64,000 bases of DNA from Luteibacter sp. OK325 (GTDB lineage Bacteria; Pseudomonadota; Gammaproteobacteria; Xanthomonadales; Rhodanobacteraceae). The position numbers and the translations under genes were made by a program. Location: the NCBI RefSeq assembly GCF_003050935.1, contig NZ_QAOX01000004.1:124001-188000 (forward strand), read 5' to 3'. The notes under the pieces were generated by a model, which made no database searches, had not been told where the DNA came from, and saw nothing but the letters and a program-made list of their open reading frames with translations. Of this stretch, positions 6,925 to 13,924 are shown piece after piece; position 1 is the first letter of the stretch; each line of letters starts with the position of its first letter.

Positions 6925-9900
6925 TTAACCACCATCACCGAACTTGTACGTGATCCCTACGTAGTACTGGCGTCCTGCATATTCGAGGCTGACCAGTCGT
7001 GCCGTCGTGTCGCTGCCCAGGTACTGGTGCGGCGTCGACTTCGACAGGTTGATCACCGATGCGGTCACCACGAAGTGCTTGTTGAACTCGTAGTCACCGT
7101 TCAGGTCGATCTGGTGATACGGCGCCGAATAAATCGGCAGGCCGGCCGCCAGACCCTGCATGGTCCGTCCGGTGAAGTTGTCACTGGCGCGAAGCAGCAG
7201 GCCGTTCTTTTCATAGAACACCGACACATTGGCTGCGTACTTCGCGCTACCGATCAGCTCGGACTTGCCGACCTGCGTGTCGCCCAGGGAAACCGGGGTT
7301 TCCGTGGTGTGATTGAGCGTGTAGTTGGCGATGTAACCGAAGCCATTGTCCCAGGTGTGCTGGGTGTAGAACTCAATGCCCTTGGACGTGCCCGAGCGGC
7401 CATTGGCATTGGTGCTGTACTGCATGAAGTTCGTCGGCGTACCGTTAACGTCGACACTGATGTTGTTGACGGTGACCGGTACGACGAAGTTCTTCACCTT
7501 CTTCTGGAACAGATCGATACCAACCACCGAATGCGGTGCGTAGTACCACTCGGTCGCCAGGTCGAACTGGGTCGCTGTGAACGGCTTCAGGTCTGCATTG
7601 GCGCCGCTGCCGTACCAACCCGGCAAGGGGGCACCGAACTGCTTGCGATCGTTGTAGTACTCCTGGGTGTTGTTGGTGAGGCTGCCCAACTGGGCCAGGT
7701 CGGTGTAGTTGGCGCGAGCCAGCGCCTGCGAGCCCGCGGCGCGGACCACGACGTCATCCAGGACGTTCCACGCGATATTGAAGCTCGGCAACGCCTTGTT
7801 GTAGCGCTTGCGCGTGGAGCTGTTCTCGAACGTCTGCACGACCGCCTGCTCGCGCGGCTGGTACTGGAAGTCGCCCGGTGCGCAGGCACCGCCGGCAATA
7901 TTCTGGCCGGTGGTCGGGCAGATCAGGATGTTGCCACCGCCGTCGTGGTAGTACACCGCGTTGTTGGTGGTGATCTCGTTGGCGACGGTCAGGTCCTGCC
8001 CCGTGCTGACAAAGCGCAGGCCCACGTTGCCGCGGATCGTACCGGTGTCGAAGTTAGCCTGCACATAAGCCGCGGCGATCTTTTCCTGGATCGACGACTT
8101 GTCATCGGGGTGGTTGTAGAGCACCCGGTCGTAGGTCTGGTTGAGATAGTTGTAGTACGCCGGGTAATTGATCGCCGGGAAGGTGCTGTCGCTGTAGGCC
8201 TCGTTGGTCCCGTCGAGCGAGTTCGCCTGGAGGAAGCCCGCCGGCAACTGGCCGGCATTGGGATCGCAGGTCTGAAACTGCAGCGTCGTGCCCTTGCAGT
8301 ACCAGCGCTGCTCGTTGTTCGTCTGCTCAGCGTGATTGTCGCGGTACTTGAACCCGAACTGCAGCGACTGGAACCAGGTGGAATCGAAGGCCCAGGTGAG
8401 ATCGGCCTGGGCGAAGTTCTGCGAGTTGCTGGTATTGACCATGTTCGAACCGGTCGAGCCCAGATCCACCTGCCCCGCGCCAGCCAGCATGTTCTGCAGT
8501 ACATCGGGCGAGGCCGTGAGTGTCGGCTTGCCACCCAGCGTCCATGCGGCACCATCGCTACCATCCACCCACTGGCCGTTGACGAAGTTGCGCGGCTTCG
8601 CCGCCATGGACAACTGCACCGACGGGCCGCCCGTGGCCCAGGTACGGCCGACGTTGAACGAGCCGCTGAGACTGCCGCCGTTGTCCCACTCACCTTCGAG
8701 GTTGAGGGTCTGCGAGGTGGCCTTCTCGACGTTGTAGCTGCCATTCAGCCACGGAATCTCCGTGGAGCAGGTATCGACGGCCTGTCGCGCCGCACCGGTG
8801 ACCGGGTTGGTCAGCGAGTTACAGCCCACGCCGGCGGGCGGCAGCACATAATTCGCGCCGGTGACAATGGTGTGCGACGGATCGAACGTCAGGCCGTTGG
8901 GTGCGAGCAACCTGCCCTGCTGATCCGCGTAATTGCTGTTGCTCGGCAGGCCCCACTCGGGCACTTCCAGCGTGTTGGTGATCTGGGTCTGCTGGCGCTG
9001 GAAGCGGAAGTAGTTACCCGTCAACAGCAAATGGTCGCTGGGCTTGAACTGCATGGTCGCCTGGGCGCCCTTGGTCTTCAGGTCCAGCTCGTTGCGACTC
9101 GTGGAAAACTGCTGCGGCATCCAGTAGCCCGAATCGACGTTGCCAGCCTGATCGACGACACCGCCGCCCGACCACAGGTCGAGATTGGGCGCCACGTCGG
9201 GACCGTACGGCCGGCCATGCACGTCCGTCGGCGGCGCGGTACACGTGGCCTGGCTGGTACAGTCATTGCTCCACCAGTGCCAGCTGTCGGCCTTGGCGGT
9301 GTAATCGATATCGCGACGCTTCTGGTACGAACCGGCGACGAGGAAGCCAAACGTCTCGTCCTTGTTCTTCCACGACCACAGGGCCGAGGTCTGCGGCGTC
9401 TTCTTGCTGCTGTTGTCCGAGCCCGCTCCATTGAGGGACACGAAGCCGTCGTTCGCCTTCATTTCCAGCGGACGGCGCGTGTGCAGGTCCACATTACCGC
9501 CGATGCCGCCTTCGTCCAGGCGTGCCTCGAGGCTCTTGTAGAGCTTGATCTCGGAGAACATGTTCGCCGGCATCAGCGTGTAGTTGAACGAGCGCGTCAG
9601 GCCGGCCGAGGTATCGGCCGAGGCTACGTAGTTGCCGTTCAATTCGGTCAGCGTCAGCTCGGGCGCCAGGCCACGAATGCTGACCGTCTTGCCTTCGCCC
9701 GATTCGCGGCTGATGACCACGCCAGGCACGTGCGCCAGCGCATCGGCGATGTTCTTGGCGGGGAACTGCGCGATGTTCTGCGCGTTGATGACTTCGACGA
9801 TGGAATTGGCGTCACGCTTGTCCAGCACGTTCTGGTCGATGGACTGGCGGTACGTCGTGACGACGACGGCGTCCATGTTGGTCGTACCAGCCGCCGTATC

Positions 9901-10116
9901 GTTGGCCTGCTTATCTGCCTTCTTGTCCTTGTCGTCTTTCTTTACCGTTGAGCTAGTGGTCGTTTGTGCCGGCGCAGACGCTGTCGTGGTGACGGGCGTG
10001 GATGTTTGCGCGAAGGCTGCCGTTGGTACCCCCAGATACCCGACGAACGACAAGGTGGCTGTGGCGAGCGCGGCACAAAGCGGCTTGCGCTTAAGCATAT
10101 GTGGCAGATAAGTCAT
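6925..10116 (-). CDS. TonB-dependent outer-membrane receptor (carbohydrate-type)
   Basis: This 1063-aa protein has a signal peptide (MLKRKPLCAALATATL to AFAQ), a Thr/Lys/Asp-rich linker (about 38-80), a TonB-box-like MDAVVVT, a plug domain (about 85-210, with FPAKNIADALAHVPGV and GEGKTVSIRGL) and a long beta-barrel ending in a terminal aromatic-containing strand. It matches the large Xanthomonas/Caulobacter receptor family used for energised uptake of oligosaccharides. The gene is first in an operon with GH92 and GH2, so its cargo is probably a mannose-containing oligosaccharide (inference). Translation may begin at the ATG at 10116 or the ATG at 10098, which starts the cleaner signal peptide; a GAGGG lies upstream of the first. 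Confidence 0.9.
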   Translation of the reverse strand: MTYLPHMLKRKPLCAALATATLSFVGYLGVPTAAFAQTSTPVTTTASAPAQTTTSSTVKKDDKDKKADKQANDTAAGTTNMDAVVVTTYRQSIDQNVLDKRDANSIVEVINAQNIAQFPAKNIADALAHVPGVVISRESGEGKTVSIRGLAPELTLTELNGNYVASADTSAGLTRSFNYTLMPANMFSEIKLYKSLEARLDEGGIGGNVDLHTRRPLEMKANDGFVSLNGAGSDNSSKKTPQTSALWSWKNKDETFGFLVAGSYQKRRDIDYTAKADSWHWWSNDCTSQATCTAPPTDVHGRPYGPDVAPNLDLWSGGGVVDQAGNVDSGYWMPQQFSTSRNELDLKTKGAQATMQFKPSDHLLLTGNYFRFQRQQTQITNTLEVPEWGLPSNSNYADQQGRLLAPNGLTFDPSHTIVTGANYVLPPAGVGCNSLTNPVTGAARQAVDTCSTEIPWLNGSYNVEKATSQTLNLEGEWDNGGSLSGSFNVGRTWATGGPSVQLSMAAKPRNFVNGQWVDGSDGAAWTLGGKPTLTASPDVLQNMLAGAGQVDLGSTGSNMVNTSNSQNFAQADLTWAFDSTWFQSLQFGFKYRDNHAEQTNNEQRWYCKGTTLQFQTCDPNAGQLPAGFLQANSLDGTNEAYSDSTFPAINYPAYYNYLNQTYDRVLYNHPDDKSSIQEKIAAAYVQANFDTGTIRGNVGLRFVSTGQDLTVANEITTNNAVYYHDGGGNILICPTTGQNIAGGACAPGDFQYQPREQAVVQTFENSSTRKRYNKALPSFNIAWNVLDDVVVRAAGSQALARANYTDLAQLGSLTNNTQEYYNDRKQFGAPLPGWYGSGANADLKPFTATQFDLATEWYYAPHSVVGIDLFQKKVKNFVVPVTVNNISVDVNGTPTNFMQYSTNANGRSGTSKGIEFYTQHTWDNGFGYIANYTLNHTTETPVSLGDTQVGKSELIGSAKYAANVSVFYEKNGLLLRASDNFTGRTMQGLAAGLPIYSAPYHQIDLNGDYEFNKHFVVTASVINLSKSTPHQYLGSDTTARLVSLEYAGRQYYVGITYKFGDGG

Positions 10117-10925: not shown

Positions 10926-11771
10926 TTACGCTGTAACTGTGGGTTCAACACCCGAGCCATAGATCGCATCGAGTTCGTCGAGGCGCGCGCGCCAGACGGC
11001 ATTCGGTTTAAGGGCCTGCGCGGGCGGAATCACAAGCGTTTCCTGTCCGGTGTACTCAGCGGAGGTGAAATCACGCAGTGCCACGCGCTGGATGTGCGGC
11101 CCTTCAACCGGCAGTGTCGGCGCGCGATAGACGATGACCTCGTGGTCGGGCGAATAGTCCTGGCATAACCTTTCAACCAACAGTTCCCGATACGCGTCCG
11201 GCGTTTTGAATCGGCCAAGGGAGCGATCACCGACGACACCGAGCTGCCAGAGGATCACGTGGCTCGTCGTATCCAGGTTGCGCTCGAAGAACAGTAGCTG
11301 GCTGGCCTCGAGATGCTGGCAGCCGAAGCGGGCCGGATCGATGCCGAGATCGGCATACAGGCAGTCTTCGGCGGATATGCCAGGCTCCATATAAGCCTCG
11401 TAGCCTTCAGCGCGGGCGACCTCGATCACCTTATGCGGCGACCAGGCGAAAATGCCCGGGTGACCGTAGAACACGGCGCAGACCCGCTTCCCGGCACGCA
11501 CTTCAGCCATCATCACCTCGACCCATTCACGATAGGTCTTCATGCGTGACTTGCCCGGACGGTAGTACGGCTGGAGACTGCGGACCTCCGGATTCAGGCG
11601 TTGTAGCCAGAGCTCCACGACGTGGTCCGAGAGTGCAGCGAAGACGACGTCCGCGGTCTCGATATAGCTGCGCGCAATCGGCGTCAGGTGGGAACCCAAG
11701 GTAATGCCCATGCCAACGGAAGTGATGCTGCCGCGGCGGGCTTCAGTCGATACCGGATCAGATGTATTCAT
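10926..11771 (-). CDS. Split-borosin-type peptide alpha-N-methyltransferase (tetrapyrrole-methylase fold)
   Basis: This 281-aa protein is a SAM-dependent methyltransferase of the tetrapyrrole methylase superfamily, and its pattern follows the borosin backbone N-methyltransferases rather than porphyrin enzymes. It opens with GSITSVGMGITLGSHLT, has ARSYIETADVVF, then LQPYYRPGKSRMKTY, YGHPGIFAW (102-110), MEPGISAEDCLYADLGIDP and HLEASQLLFF. Y70, R76 and Y80 have the same spacing as the catalytic Tyr/Arg/Tyr set described for OphMA-type enzymes. There is no fused C-terminal core peptide, as in the two-protein Shewanella system (SonM with substrate SonA). The start overlaps the GGDEF gene stop by 4 nt. 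The small protein encoded first in the operon is the obvious candidate substrate. Methylation of that peptide is inference. Confidence 0.82.
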   Translation of the reverse strand: MNTSDPVSTEARRGSITSVGMGITLGSHLTPIARSYIETADVVFAALSDHVVELWLQRLNPEVRSLQPYYRPGKSRMKTYREWVEVMMAEVRAGKRVCAVFYGHPGIFAWSPHKVIEVARAEGYEAYMEPGISAEDCLYADLGIDPARFGCQHLEASQLLFFERNLDTTSHVILWQLGVVGDRSLGRFKTPDAYRELLVERLCQDYSPDHEVIVYRAPTLPVEGPHIQRVALRDFTSAEYTGQETLVIPPAQALKPNAVWRARLDELDAIYGSGVEPTVTA

Positions 11772-13582
11772 AGACTCATAGTATGCAAAGGTAATTGTGA
11801 CGAACGCGCACCGTCGTCCCCGTCGCCATCGATGACGACGCGGTTACGCCCCATGTGTTTCGCCTGATATAGCGCGGCATCCGAGGCACGGCACAGTCGC
11901 TGTAAGTCGTAGCCTGCGCTGTCGGTACTGGCCAGACCGATGCTGGCCGAGACGGAAATCACCAGGCCGTCCATAACCAGCGGTGATGCCGTGAGCGCCA
12001 ACCGGATTCTCTCGGCGACCACGCTACCCTGCAATCGCGGCGTATCCACCAGCAACATGCCGAACTCCTCGCCACCGAGGCGCCCGAGCAGATCGGCACG
12101 GCGCAACTGTCCTTTGCAGATCGCGACAGCGTGCTTCAGCACAGCATCGCCCAGGGCGTGCCCGTGCGTATCGTTAACCTGCTTGAAATGATCCAGGTCA
12201 AGAAAGACAAGGCAGCCGTCGCCGGATCGCTTTTCAAGGACCTGGAGTGCGCGAACGGATTCGCTCATGAAATGCTGATGATTGAAAATTCCAGTGAGTC
12301 CATCGCACGACGACAACCACTTGAAACGAAGCTGTGAACGCTTGATGCGTACCATCCAGAAGACGATCGAAAGAAGAACGAGGAACATCACCACGATATA
12401 GAGACGACTCGTCTCCACGGCCTTGGCATCCAACGCCTGCTGGAGCCGCAGAATGCGATTTTCCTTGCTCAGGCCCTCGGTTTCGAGCTTCTCGGCGCGA
12501 AAGTGCTGATTGGCCGCCTCATAGGCCGCATTCCTGACGTTCGCATCGCGCAGGTAGCCTTGGTCCTGGACGACGTAGTGTTCGTAGTAATCCAGCGCGC
12601 TGGCATCGTGCCCCTGTGCCTTCTCAATCGAGTACAGCACCCGGTAAGCGAAGCGCAGCGCCTCGTTGACGTCACCAACGTGGTTCATGGCAACGACCTC
12701 AAGCGCGGCTCTGCGTGCTTCGCTGGCGTTGCCCATTTGCTCGTAGATTCGGGCGCGTGCACTGGCCAGATCGATGAGATGTGGAAAGTACTTGCTTGCC
12801 TGGATGGCAGGCGTGAGCCGACGGACGGTCGCCAGCGCCTCGATCAGCTTGTGTTCGCTCAGCAACCGATCCACCAGGATGAGTGAGGCGGCATTGGCGA
12901 AAATCGGCTGGCGGTCCGCAGTGCAGGCGTCTATTGTCGCCATCAACTCCGGGCTGCTAGCTGTCAGCTGGCGGGACCCCTCGAGCGCGACGACTTTCTG
13001 CGCCATGCCCGGGCAGGGAGATTGGCCGGCCGGCGTCGCGCTCAACATCATATCGGCATACTTCAGTGCCTGCTCCGGCTGGCCCGCATACGCAAGCATC
13101 TGCGACAGGTTTGCCAACAATATGAATCGGGCCTGCGGATCAGTCACCACATCCAGGGTGTCCGCCGCGCGGGTCGTCATGGCGTAAGCCTCCGCGTACT
13201 TCCCCCGGCCGGTCAGGTTGTTCATCAGCATGGCGCTCGCGCGAACGCCTACCGGATCATCGTCCGACTCCCCCATGACTTCCTGGAAAGCCGTGGCCGC
13301 TTCAGGATAGCGTCCCTCGTAATTGGCCTCCCAGCCATCGAGGTAGCGCAGATACCGCTTTTCGGACTTCGTCAGTGAGCCCACGTCGCCATGGAGTTCG
13401 GCCAGCTTCTCAACGAAGCCGGCGTGATCCGTCGTGCGTATAGCATCGACCTGCGCGAGCCGATCCGCGCTCGGCGCTGCCGACCGCGCGGAATCGGCAT
13501 GAGCCCCCTGGACTTGCATCCACACTGCCAGCCCCACCAGGACCGGCCAGGGTCGCATGTAGCGACGACAGCGGAGGGCCAT
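11768..13582 (-). CDS. Membrane-bound diguanylate cyclase with periplasmic helical-repeat sensor region
   Basis: This 604-aa protein has a signal sequence or first membrane segment (about 12-30), a long TPR-like helical region (about 40-370) predicted to be periplasmic, a short coiled coil (about 372-395), a membrane segment (about 397-417) and a C-terminal GGDEF domain (about 430-590). The active-site loop is GGEEF at 503-507. An RxxD allosteric site (RRAD) lies five residues before it, and FLDLDHFKQVNDTHGHALGD is canonical, so it should make c-di-GMP. It starts 12 nt after the small peptide gene (GAGGGA ribosome site overlapping that gene's TGA) and overlaps the methyltransferase start by 4 nt. 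Sharing an operon with a borosin-like pair suggests that it senses or signals for that peptide, which is speculative. Confidence 0.9.
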   Translation of the reverse strand: MALRCRRYMRPWPVLVGLAVWMQVQGAHADSARSAAPSADRLAQVDAIRTTDHAGFVEKLAELHGDVGSLTKSEKRYLRYLDGWEANYEGRYPEAATAFQEVMGESDDDPVGVRASAMLMNNLTGRGKYAEAYAMTTRAADTLDVVTDPQARFILLANLSQMLAYAGQPEQALKYADMMLSATPAGQSPCPGMAQKVVALEGSRQLTASSPELMATIDACTADRQPIFANAASLILVDRLLSEHKLIEALATVRRLTPAIQASKYFPHLIDLASARARIYEQMGNASEARRAALEVVAMNHVGDVNEALRFAYRVLYSIEKAQGHDASALDYYEHYVVQDQGYLRDANVRNAAYEAANQHFRAEKLETEGLSKENRILRLQQALDAKAVETSRLYIVVMFLVLLSIVFWMVRIKRSQLRFKWLSSCDGLTGIFNHQHFMSESVRALQVLEKRSGDGCLVFLDLDHFKQVNDTHGHALGDAVLKHAVAICKGQLRRADLLGRLGGEEFGMLLVDTPRLQGSVVAERIRLALTASPLVMDGLVISVSASIGLASTDSAGYDLQRLCRASDAALYQAKHMGRNRVVIDGDGDDGARSSQLPLHTMSL

Positions 13583-13594
13583 GCCGATATTCCC

Positions 13595-13924
13595 TCAGGT
13601 CGAGGGTGTGTCGCCGTCAGCATCGTCCGGACGCTGCTTCGGCTCGTCGTCCTTGCCGTCGCCATGGTCGTCATCATGATGATGGTGATGATGGTCGTCG
13701 TGACCGTCGCCCTCATGCCCGCCCGTCTGGGTCATGTGTTCGACGTGCATCTGCTTCAGACCCAGTTCTTTCGTCAGGCCCGCACTGTCGCCATTGGCAA
13801 CCAGCTCGCGCAGGCCTTCCGAGGCTTCGCTCGCTTCCAGCACTTGTGCCAATGCTTCGGGCGAGGCGCGCCGCAAAGCTGCATCGCGGCCAATGGCTTC
13901 CAGTAGTTCGACGGTGTCGCGCAT
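13595..13924 (-). CDS. Small protein with borosin-precursor-like helical domain and His/Asp-rich tail
   Basis: This 109-aa product is first in the operon. Residues 1-58 form a small helical domain (LLEAIGRDAALRRASPEAL, then LVANGDSAGLTKELG) resembling the binding domain of the Shewanella split-borosin substrate SonA, in which LGQDAQL and MTGDMEKLKTLSG occupy equivalent places (recalled from memory). Residues 59-109 are a low-complexity tail with eleven His, including six in a row at 78-83, many Asp, and few hydrophobic residues (V61, M64). It is the candidate methylation substrate. A metal-binding protein unrelated to methylation is the alternative. AGGGGA stands about 8 nt before the ATG. 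There is no signal peptide. Confidence 0.65.
   Translation of the reverse strand: MRDTVELLEAIGRDAALRRASPEALAQVLEASEASEGLRELVANGDSAGLTKELGLKQMHVEHMTQTGGHEGDGHDDHHHHHHDDDHGDGKDDEPKQRPDDADGDTPST

Follow-up and report, generated by a model that had tools for sequence, protein, structure and literature searches.

A split-borosin cassette of Luteibacter sp. OK325 pairs its precursor with a TPR-GGDEF sensor that may be the peptide's own receptor

Split borosins have been described before, and the account in PMC8429565 gives SonM and SonA of Shewanella oneidensis as type IV and Y58, R67 and Y71 as the catalytic residues of SonM; it also states that, as of 2021, no type IV borosin pathway had been tied to a final natural product. 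A GGDEF element is part of a drawing of borosin types whose figure 1 legend contains the entry "GGDEF, GGDEF-sequence-containing domain" (PMC11395268), which we compared with our locus by the legend text, where neither the borosin type nor the kind of sensor is stated. An association of borosins with GGDEF proteins is at least partly in print already. Among open-access papers, a search that did not cover the primary papers on borosin types found none with both borosin and cyclic di-GMP (c-di-GMP), PMC11395268 as the sole one with borosin and GGDEF, and no discussion of a peptide-receptor role for a borosin-linked sensor.

Here, we analyse a window of 64,000 nucleotides from Luteibacter sp. OK325 (contig NZ_QAOX01000004.1, positions 124,001 to 188,000), in which three minus-strand genes, encoding a precursor peptide, a TPR-GGDEF cyclase and a methyltransferase, are stacked as a tight operon. 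The gap between the precursor stop and the cyclase start is 12 bp, whereas the cyclase and methyltransferase genes share 4 bp (ATGA). An original prediction from the bare sequence had described these genes as overlapping or closely spaced, with a cyclase carrying GGEEF, RxxD and a helical-repeat sensor between precursor and methyltransferase, and had suggested that the peptide or its export is tied to c-di-GMP signalling. The coordinates given for the cyclase are exact, its domains and the spacing were found as described, and both labels are right, the precursor being of the borosin type according to a profile chain and the enzyme a SonM/OphMA homologue. Established are the identities of the genes by homology, the operon layout, the intact catalytic motifs and a conserved pairing of precursor and TPR sensor in the window's taxonomic order. 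The earlier idea is right in substance, with the precursor-sensor pair, and not the middle position of the cyclase, as the lasting feature. Based on this pairing, we propose a split-borosin cassette with its own receptor, in which the TPR domain would bind the exported borosin peptide and report it as c-di-GMP; we regard this proposal as evenly poised.

The 281-aa methyltransferase matches the tetrapyrrole methylase family of Pfam, and its nearest relative in the PDB is SonM (7ltc_A; phmmer 7.1e-68, residues 14-263), with the OphMA group also near. In the phmmer alignment, Y70, R76 and Y80 fall on Y58, R67 and Y71 of SonM. For the precursor, the connection runs solely via intermediate families: the single 109-aa sequence found no PDB relative including SonA, and profile A3 (13 precursors of the window, Luteibacter, Dyella, Rhodanobacter and similar loci, with no bridging rows) gave no SonA match, so a direct link from A3 was rejected. 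Profile A2, made of 22 precursors from relatives with bridging rows, matches SonA at 8e-11. Since A3 aligns with A5, the profile of Burkholderiales-type and Shewanella precursors (hhalign 92.3%, 5.4e-7), and A5 matches SonA at 3.5e-14, the window system can be placed among the split borosins by homology. In the precursor model (mean pLDDT 65.2), five short helices form the leader and the rest is unstructured; its top Foldseek match is SonA, which accounts for three of the six matches, with weak E-values of 4.0 to 9.1. Judged by these homologies, the cassette is a type IV split borosin with a separate SonM/OphMA-like methyltransferase that keeps the catalytic residues and a separate precursor with a SonA-like leader, and backbone α-N-methylation of its core is predicted. 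It shares with SonM/SonA the discrete α-N-methyltransferase and the small precursor with a helical leader, whereas its precursor is longer and has a His/Asp-rich tail, and its genes follow the order precursor-cyclase-methyltransferase. The methyltransferase-precursor-TPR-GGDEF trio is also present in Burkholderiales-type metagenome-assembled genomes (MAGs) and in Shewanella gaetbuli, where the three genes stand in a row (L051). Metal binding as a shared function of the His-rich tail was considered and rejected, as long His runs occur in few precursors of the window's genus only and the other tails are acidic with little His.

In the cyclase, the Pfam GGDEF match covers residues 426-581 (6e-36), and the TPR matches are weaker (TPR_12 at 3e-05, under the curated cut-off). 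From the sequence as read by eye rather than by a topology predictor, the N-terminus resembles a signal peptide and a membrane helix separates the TPR region from the GGDEF domain. The model (mean pLDDT 88.1, pTM 0.58) is locally confident: a domain of helical repeats leads through a long connecting helix to a GGDEF fold, and the GGDEF half resembles solved GGDEF domains and cyclases with Z of ~23-27. By fold, the TPR region resembles peptide-binding and other TPR proteins, a likeness that does not imply function and that comes from a search with the whole model, in which general TPR proteins came up among the GGDEF rows and the TPR part was not folded separately. With its intact signature, the protein should be a diguanylate cyclase, for which c-di-GMP synthesis is predicted. 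Among 93 distinct related open reading frames (ORFs) with TPR and GGDEF, a set that includes one L050 ORF of a different architecture (GAF/PAS/GGDEF/EAL), GG[DE]EF is kept in all 93 and RxxD at the I-site position in 48. Two cysteines, C190 and C220 (window 12923-13015), are invariant in 19 aligned relatives and possibly form a periplasmic disulfide.

The evidence for a partnership comes from related genomes. In a sample of 41 genomes, 31 of them with the methyltransferase, we compared 51 methyltransferase, 75 TPR and 90 precursor places. A TPR match lies within 6 kb of 45/51 methyltransferases and a listed precursor within 2.5 kb of 47/51; upstream of 61/75 TPR matches, a same-strand precursor is present within 2.6 kb, and 89/90 precursor matches have a methyltransferase or TPR match no farther than 6 kb away. 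Sorted by these distances, 46 TPR matches have both partners, 3 the methyltransferase only (two of them with precursor candidates missed by the profile), 15 the precursor only and 11 neither. The precursor-sensor bond thus outlasts the enzyme-sensor bond, because 15 of the 61 precursor-paired TPR matches (15/75 overall) have no methyltransferase within 6 kb. In the fetched loci, with genes cut by the end of a stretch left out, all 94 ORFs found by the TPR profile also match GGDEF. Rechecking places that seemed to be precursor-less revealed a clear precursor at L071 and L105, earlier hidden by an overlong cyclase ORF, a divergent one at L096 and a short acidic candidate at L098; there was none at L073 and no convincing match at L102, L103, L111, L117 and L122-L127. 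The genome of the window has ~25 GGDEF genes (from 26 matches, of which two share a frame) in 4.94 Mb, which leads to an expectation, estimated from this genome alone, that ~6-7% of random genes have a GGDEF gene within 6 kb. Compared to this, the pairing of 45/51 methyltransferases is far above chance, and we rejected chance neighbourhood as its cause. A family-wide sample of 147 genomes (94 with the methyltransferase, 139 copies) gives a comparable picture: at least 108/139 methyltransferases have a TPR match no more than 6 kb away. Among the matches listed, the nearest is on the methyltransferase's strand in 108/108, and a methyltransferase is found within 6 kb of 124 of the 150 TPR matches. 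The earlier claim that the cyclase belongs with peptide and modifying enzyme is therefore strongly supported by conserved pairing in the window's order. The same genome holds a second full cassette at G000:C5:78252-81410 (L053), in the usual order and with one short and one tailed precursor, and a third TPR-GGDEF gene at G000:C6:55552-57061 (L107), with a tailed precursor upstream and no methyltransferase in the 9-kb stretch.

The arrangement of the genes is less constant than the partnership. We compared 70 layouts, ordered by stop codons and with a few places counted twice. Methyltransferase-precursor-cyclase is the commonest (42/70), next to 4 layouts with two cyclases and 3 with an extra precursor match in front. 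The window's order occurs in 8/70, namely in the window, at L099 and at six Burkholderiales-type or unassigned MAG loci. Another 8/70 were counted without a cyclase, of which L037, ending soon after the methyltransferase, and L042, where the TPR gene runs off the contig end, are uninformative. The embedding of the cyclase between precursor and methyltransferase, as originally predicted, is true for the window and is not a conserved feature; the survey of homologous operons suggested at that time has now been run and finds the partnership conserved and the three-gene order not. Relatives in which the cyclase is absent and the other two genes stay adjacent, named then as the case that would speak against the idea, exist in part: the genomes G009 and G019 are of this kind, as an exception within the window's order, and five of eight more distant methyltransferase loci have no TPR or GGDEF match. 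The middle position is a local arrangement, and the partnership is general in the window's taxonomic order, though not universal.

Farther away, the sensor's output is exchanged at two loci. At L134 (G326), the precursor is followed by a TPR-HisKA-HATPase-REC gene (L134:5758-8718, TPR profile 2.1e-45), then by the methyltransferase and a TPR-GGDEF gene; at L135 (G386), methyltransferase and precursor precede a TPR-HisKA-HATPase-REC-REC-Hpt gene (L135:6067-9315, TPR profile 1.8e-18). The most lasting bond is that of precursor and TPR sensor, which survives both the absence of a neighbouring methyltransferase and the change of output. The sensor half stays by the peptide gene while the output changes, as expected of a receptor-ligand pair, and we therefore propose the receptor. 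In such a mechanism, based on the homology to SonM/SonA and the kept catalytic residues, the methyltransferase would bind the precursor leader and methylate backbone amides of the core. The peptide would then be trimmed, leave the cytoplasm through unlinked factors and, once mature, dock onto the cyclase's TPR domain in the periplasm. Finally, the signal would travel along the membrane helix and the long connecting helix to the GGDEF domain, which would make c-di-GMP.

Several observations weigh against this proposal. A signal peptide is not evident in the precursor, and a search of 32 loci found no exporter or protease linked to or conserved in the cassette (crude ORFs of at least 100 aa, blastp 1e-12, flanks of ~3-8 kb, so that small or distant genes could escape); the only families common to at least 3 of the 32 neighbourhoods are other GGDEF proteins and the trio's own shadow ORFs. 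Nothing was found that links the cyclase to export, as the original prediction had offered as one option, and for its other option, a coupling of the peptide to c-di-GMP, as for the proposed contact between peptide and TPR domain, we rely on inference. Neither precursor nor methyltransferase is near 11/75 TPR matches. Two TPR-GGDEF genes of this kind, L102 (G001:C1:751470) and L103 (G013:C87:7211), with TPR regions 66% identical to the window's, are possibly orphan receptors. The I-site is lost in 45/93 related ORFs, and a crude hydropathy scan detects two hydrophobic segments ahead of the GGDEF domain in just 58/93. The G009 and G019 methyltransferases are the most similar to the window's (91-92%), and their site corresponds to that of the window by its flanks (TonB receptor in both, MoxR/DUF58 in G019 only); it keeps the methyltransferase flanked by three short precursors, and no TPR-GGDEF gene was found there in 19 kb. 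In a class-wide sample of 369 genomes, 9 of which have the methyltransferase (E 1e-20), the hits of the TPR profile (E 1e-12) and those of the precursor profile (E 1e-4) fall in the same 3/369. This co-occurrence speaks for the pairing, though only as a suggestion, as it concerns three genomes, two of one family, with profiles derived from linked loci and few candidates per genome scored. Distant borosin loci are often devoid of a TPR sensor: of eight class loci besides the window's genome, two have TPR-GGDEF (L133, L134), one a TPR-kinase only (L135) and five neither (L136-L140). Co-divergence of core and TPR domain is likewise weak. When GGDEF and methyltransferase are controlled for, core divergence follows that of the TPR domain (partial r 0.295). 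Once column numbers are equalised, however, TPR is ahead of GGDEF in just 76% of subsamples. Removing a clade of 11 puts GGDEF in front (0.27 vs 0.10), with core-TPR at -0.25 inside that clade, and removing a clade of 22 does the same for the methyltransferase (0.36 vs 0.25). This first hint of co-evolution did not survive the length-matched control and clade removal well.

A different, in our view unlikely, explanation is that the cyclase regulates the pathway: its TPR domain would sense an unrelated periplasmic cue, and c-di-GMP would induce the peptide's production, export or processing, or else a biofilm state within which the peptide is active. Co-linearity and tight spacing fit this equally well and, as no exporter is linked, control of a distant one is possible. 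The 15 precursor-TPR pairs without a nearby methyltransferase, as well as the sensors of L134 and L135 with their histidine kinase output next to a precursor, fit a peptide sensor better than a fixed c-di-GMP switch. Less probable still is a link without any function, i.e. an old operon held together by co-transfer and shared ancestry. The missing cyclase at the corresponding site of G009 and G019, where the rest is kept, and the five of eight class loci with no TPR or GGDEF match agree with it. Against this, the pairing persists through changed gene order, both in the window's order and in Burkholderiales-type loci, without a neighbouring methyltransferase and, in two other genomes, with a swapped output, which makes this explanation very improbable.

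Of intermediate standing, and rather improbable, is a cytoplasmic role of the precursor, whereby the tailed leader protein, or its complex with the methyltransferase, would tune the membrane protein or its GGDEF domain with no export involved. Precursor and cyclase genes are mostly at most 60 bp apart or overlapping, if the longest ORF is taken, and an acidic tail (at least 8 acidic residues after residue 67) is present in 63/65 precursors directly upstream of TPR-GGDEF in the window's order and in 0/31 elsewhere; a first count that left out four distant loci gave 62/62 and 0/30. However, 26 of the 31 non-adjacent precursors come from two genomes (G009, G019), so these counts are not independent, and the tail is missing in the cyclase-adjacent precursors of L099 and L100 and in all 9 such precursors of the Burkholderiales-type and Shewanella loci L044-L051. 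Because of the latter, we consider the acidic tail a lineage feature. Moreover, the TPR domain reads as periplasmic, which counts against such a role.

A TPR domain that serves as receptor for a small peptide from a neighbouring gene is familiar from the RRNPP receptors of Firmicutes, where this domain is cytoplasmic. The sensor of the window may work like them, though it is not classed as one: its TPR domain, proposed as receptor of an adjacently encoded small peptide, reads as periplasmic and membrane-anchored and is joined to GGDEF or, in relatives, to a histidine kinase, and re-entry of the peptide is not known. If the receptor proposal is true, backbone-methylated peptides would join the known bacterial signals. 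The gene set is possibly ordinary to a borosin specialist, and its interest lies in making the function of bacterial borosins testable, since the c-di-GMP output of a conserved partner sensor could be assayed directly in the search for the mature peptide and its role. With more reserve than for the window itself, we suggest that the split borosins of this group would be signals and not antibiotics, with a periplasmic TPR receptor dedicated to each methylated peptide and fused to GGDEF, at times to a histidine kinase. This would amount to peptide-to-second-messenger communication in Proteobacteria, with tailed precursors paired to receptors and short ones arranged in arrays in some genomes. Arrays of precursors lie between one methyltransferase and one TPR-GGDEF gene in G009 (11 precursors; L070/L128, G009:C1 ~1.823-1.826 Mb) and in G019 (7 precursors; L075/L129, G019:C21 ~62.8-65.0 kb); in both arrays, all except the last are short and have no acidic tail.

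Table 1. Features of the borosin cassette, in window positions.
Feature	Position	Strand	Basis
Split-borosin precursor peptide gene, 109 aa	13598..13924; stop codon 13595-13597	-	Iterative profile search from the peptide and profile chain to SonA
Borosin-binding-domain-like leader, residues 1-55, five short helices in model	13760..13924	-	Profile alignment and structure model
Putative core region, residues 56-68	13721..13759	-	Inferred from position behind the leader domain, as in SonA
His/Asp-rich acidic tail, residues 69-109	13598..13720	-	Sequence; tail comparison among precursors
TPR-membrane helix-GGDEF diguanylate cyclase (predicted), 604 aa	11768..13582	-	ORF, Pfam, model
TPR sensor region, residues 38-340, predicted periplasmic	12563..13471	-	Pfam, alignment, model; topology from sequence reading
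Putative transmembrane helix, cyclase residues 394-411	12350..12403	-	Sequence reading
RxxD inhibitory-site motif (RRAD, cyclase residues 494-497)	12092..12103	-	Sequence
GGEEF active-site motif (cyclase residues 503-507)	12062..12076	-	Sequence
Borosin α-N-methyltransferase, 281 aa	10926..11771	-	Pfam, homology to SonM, aligned catalytic residues

Besides the cassette, a TonB-dependent receptor gene of the Xanthomonas-Caulobacter type lies downstream on the same strand (window 6925-10116) and adjoins the methyltransferase in G009 and G019 as well. Among the methyltransferase matches of other genomes, two contain one internal TGA (G014:C1:4512633 and G033:C32:40089).

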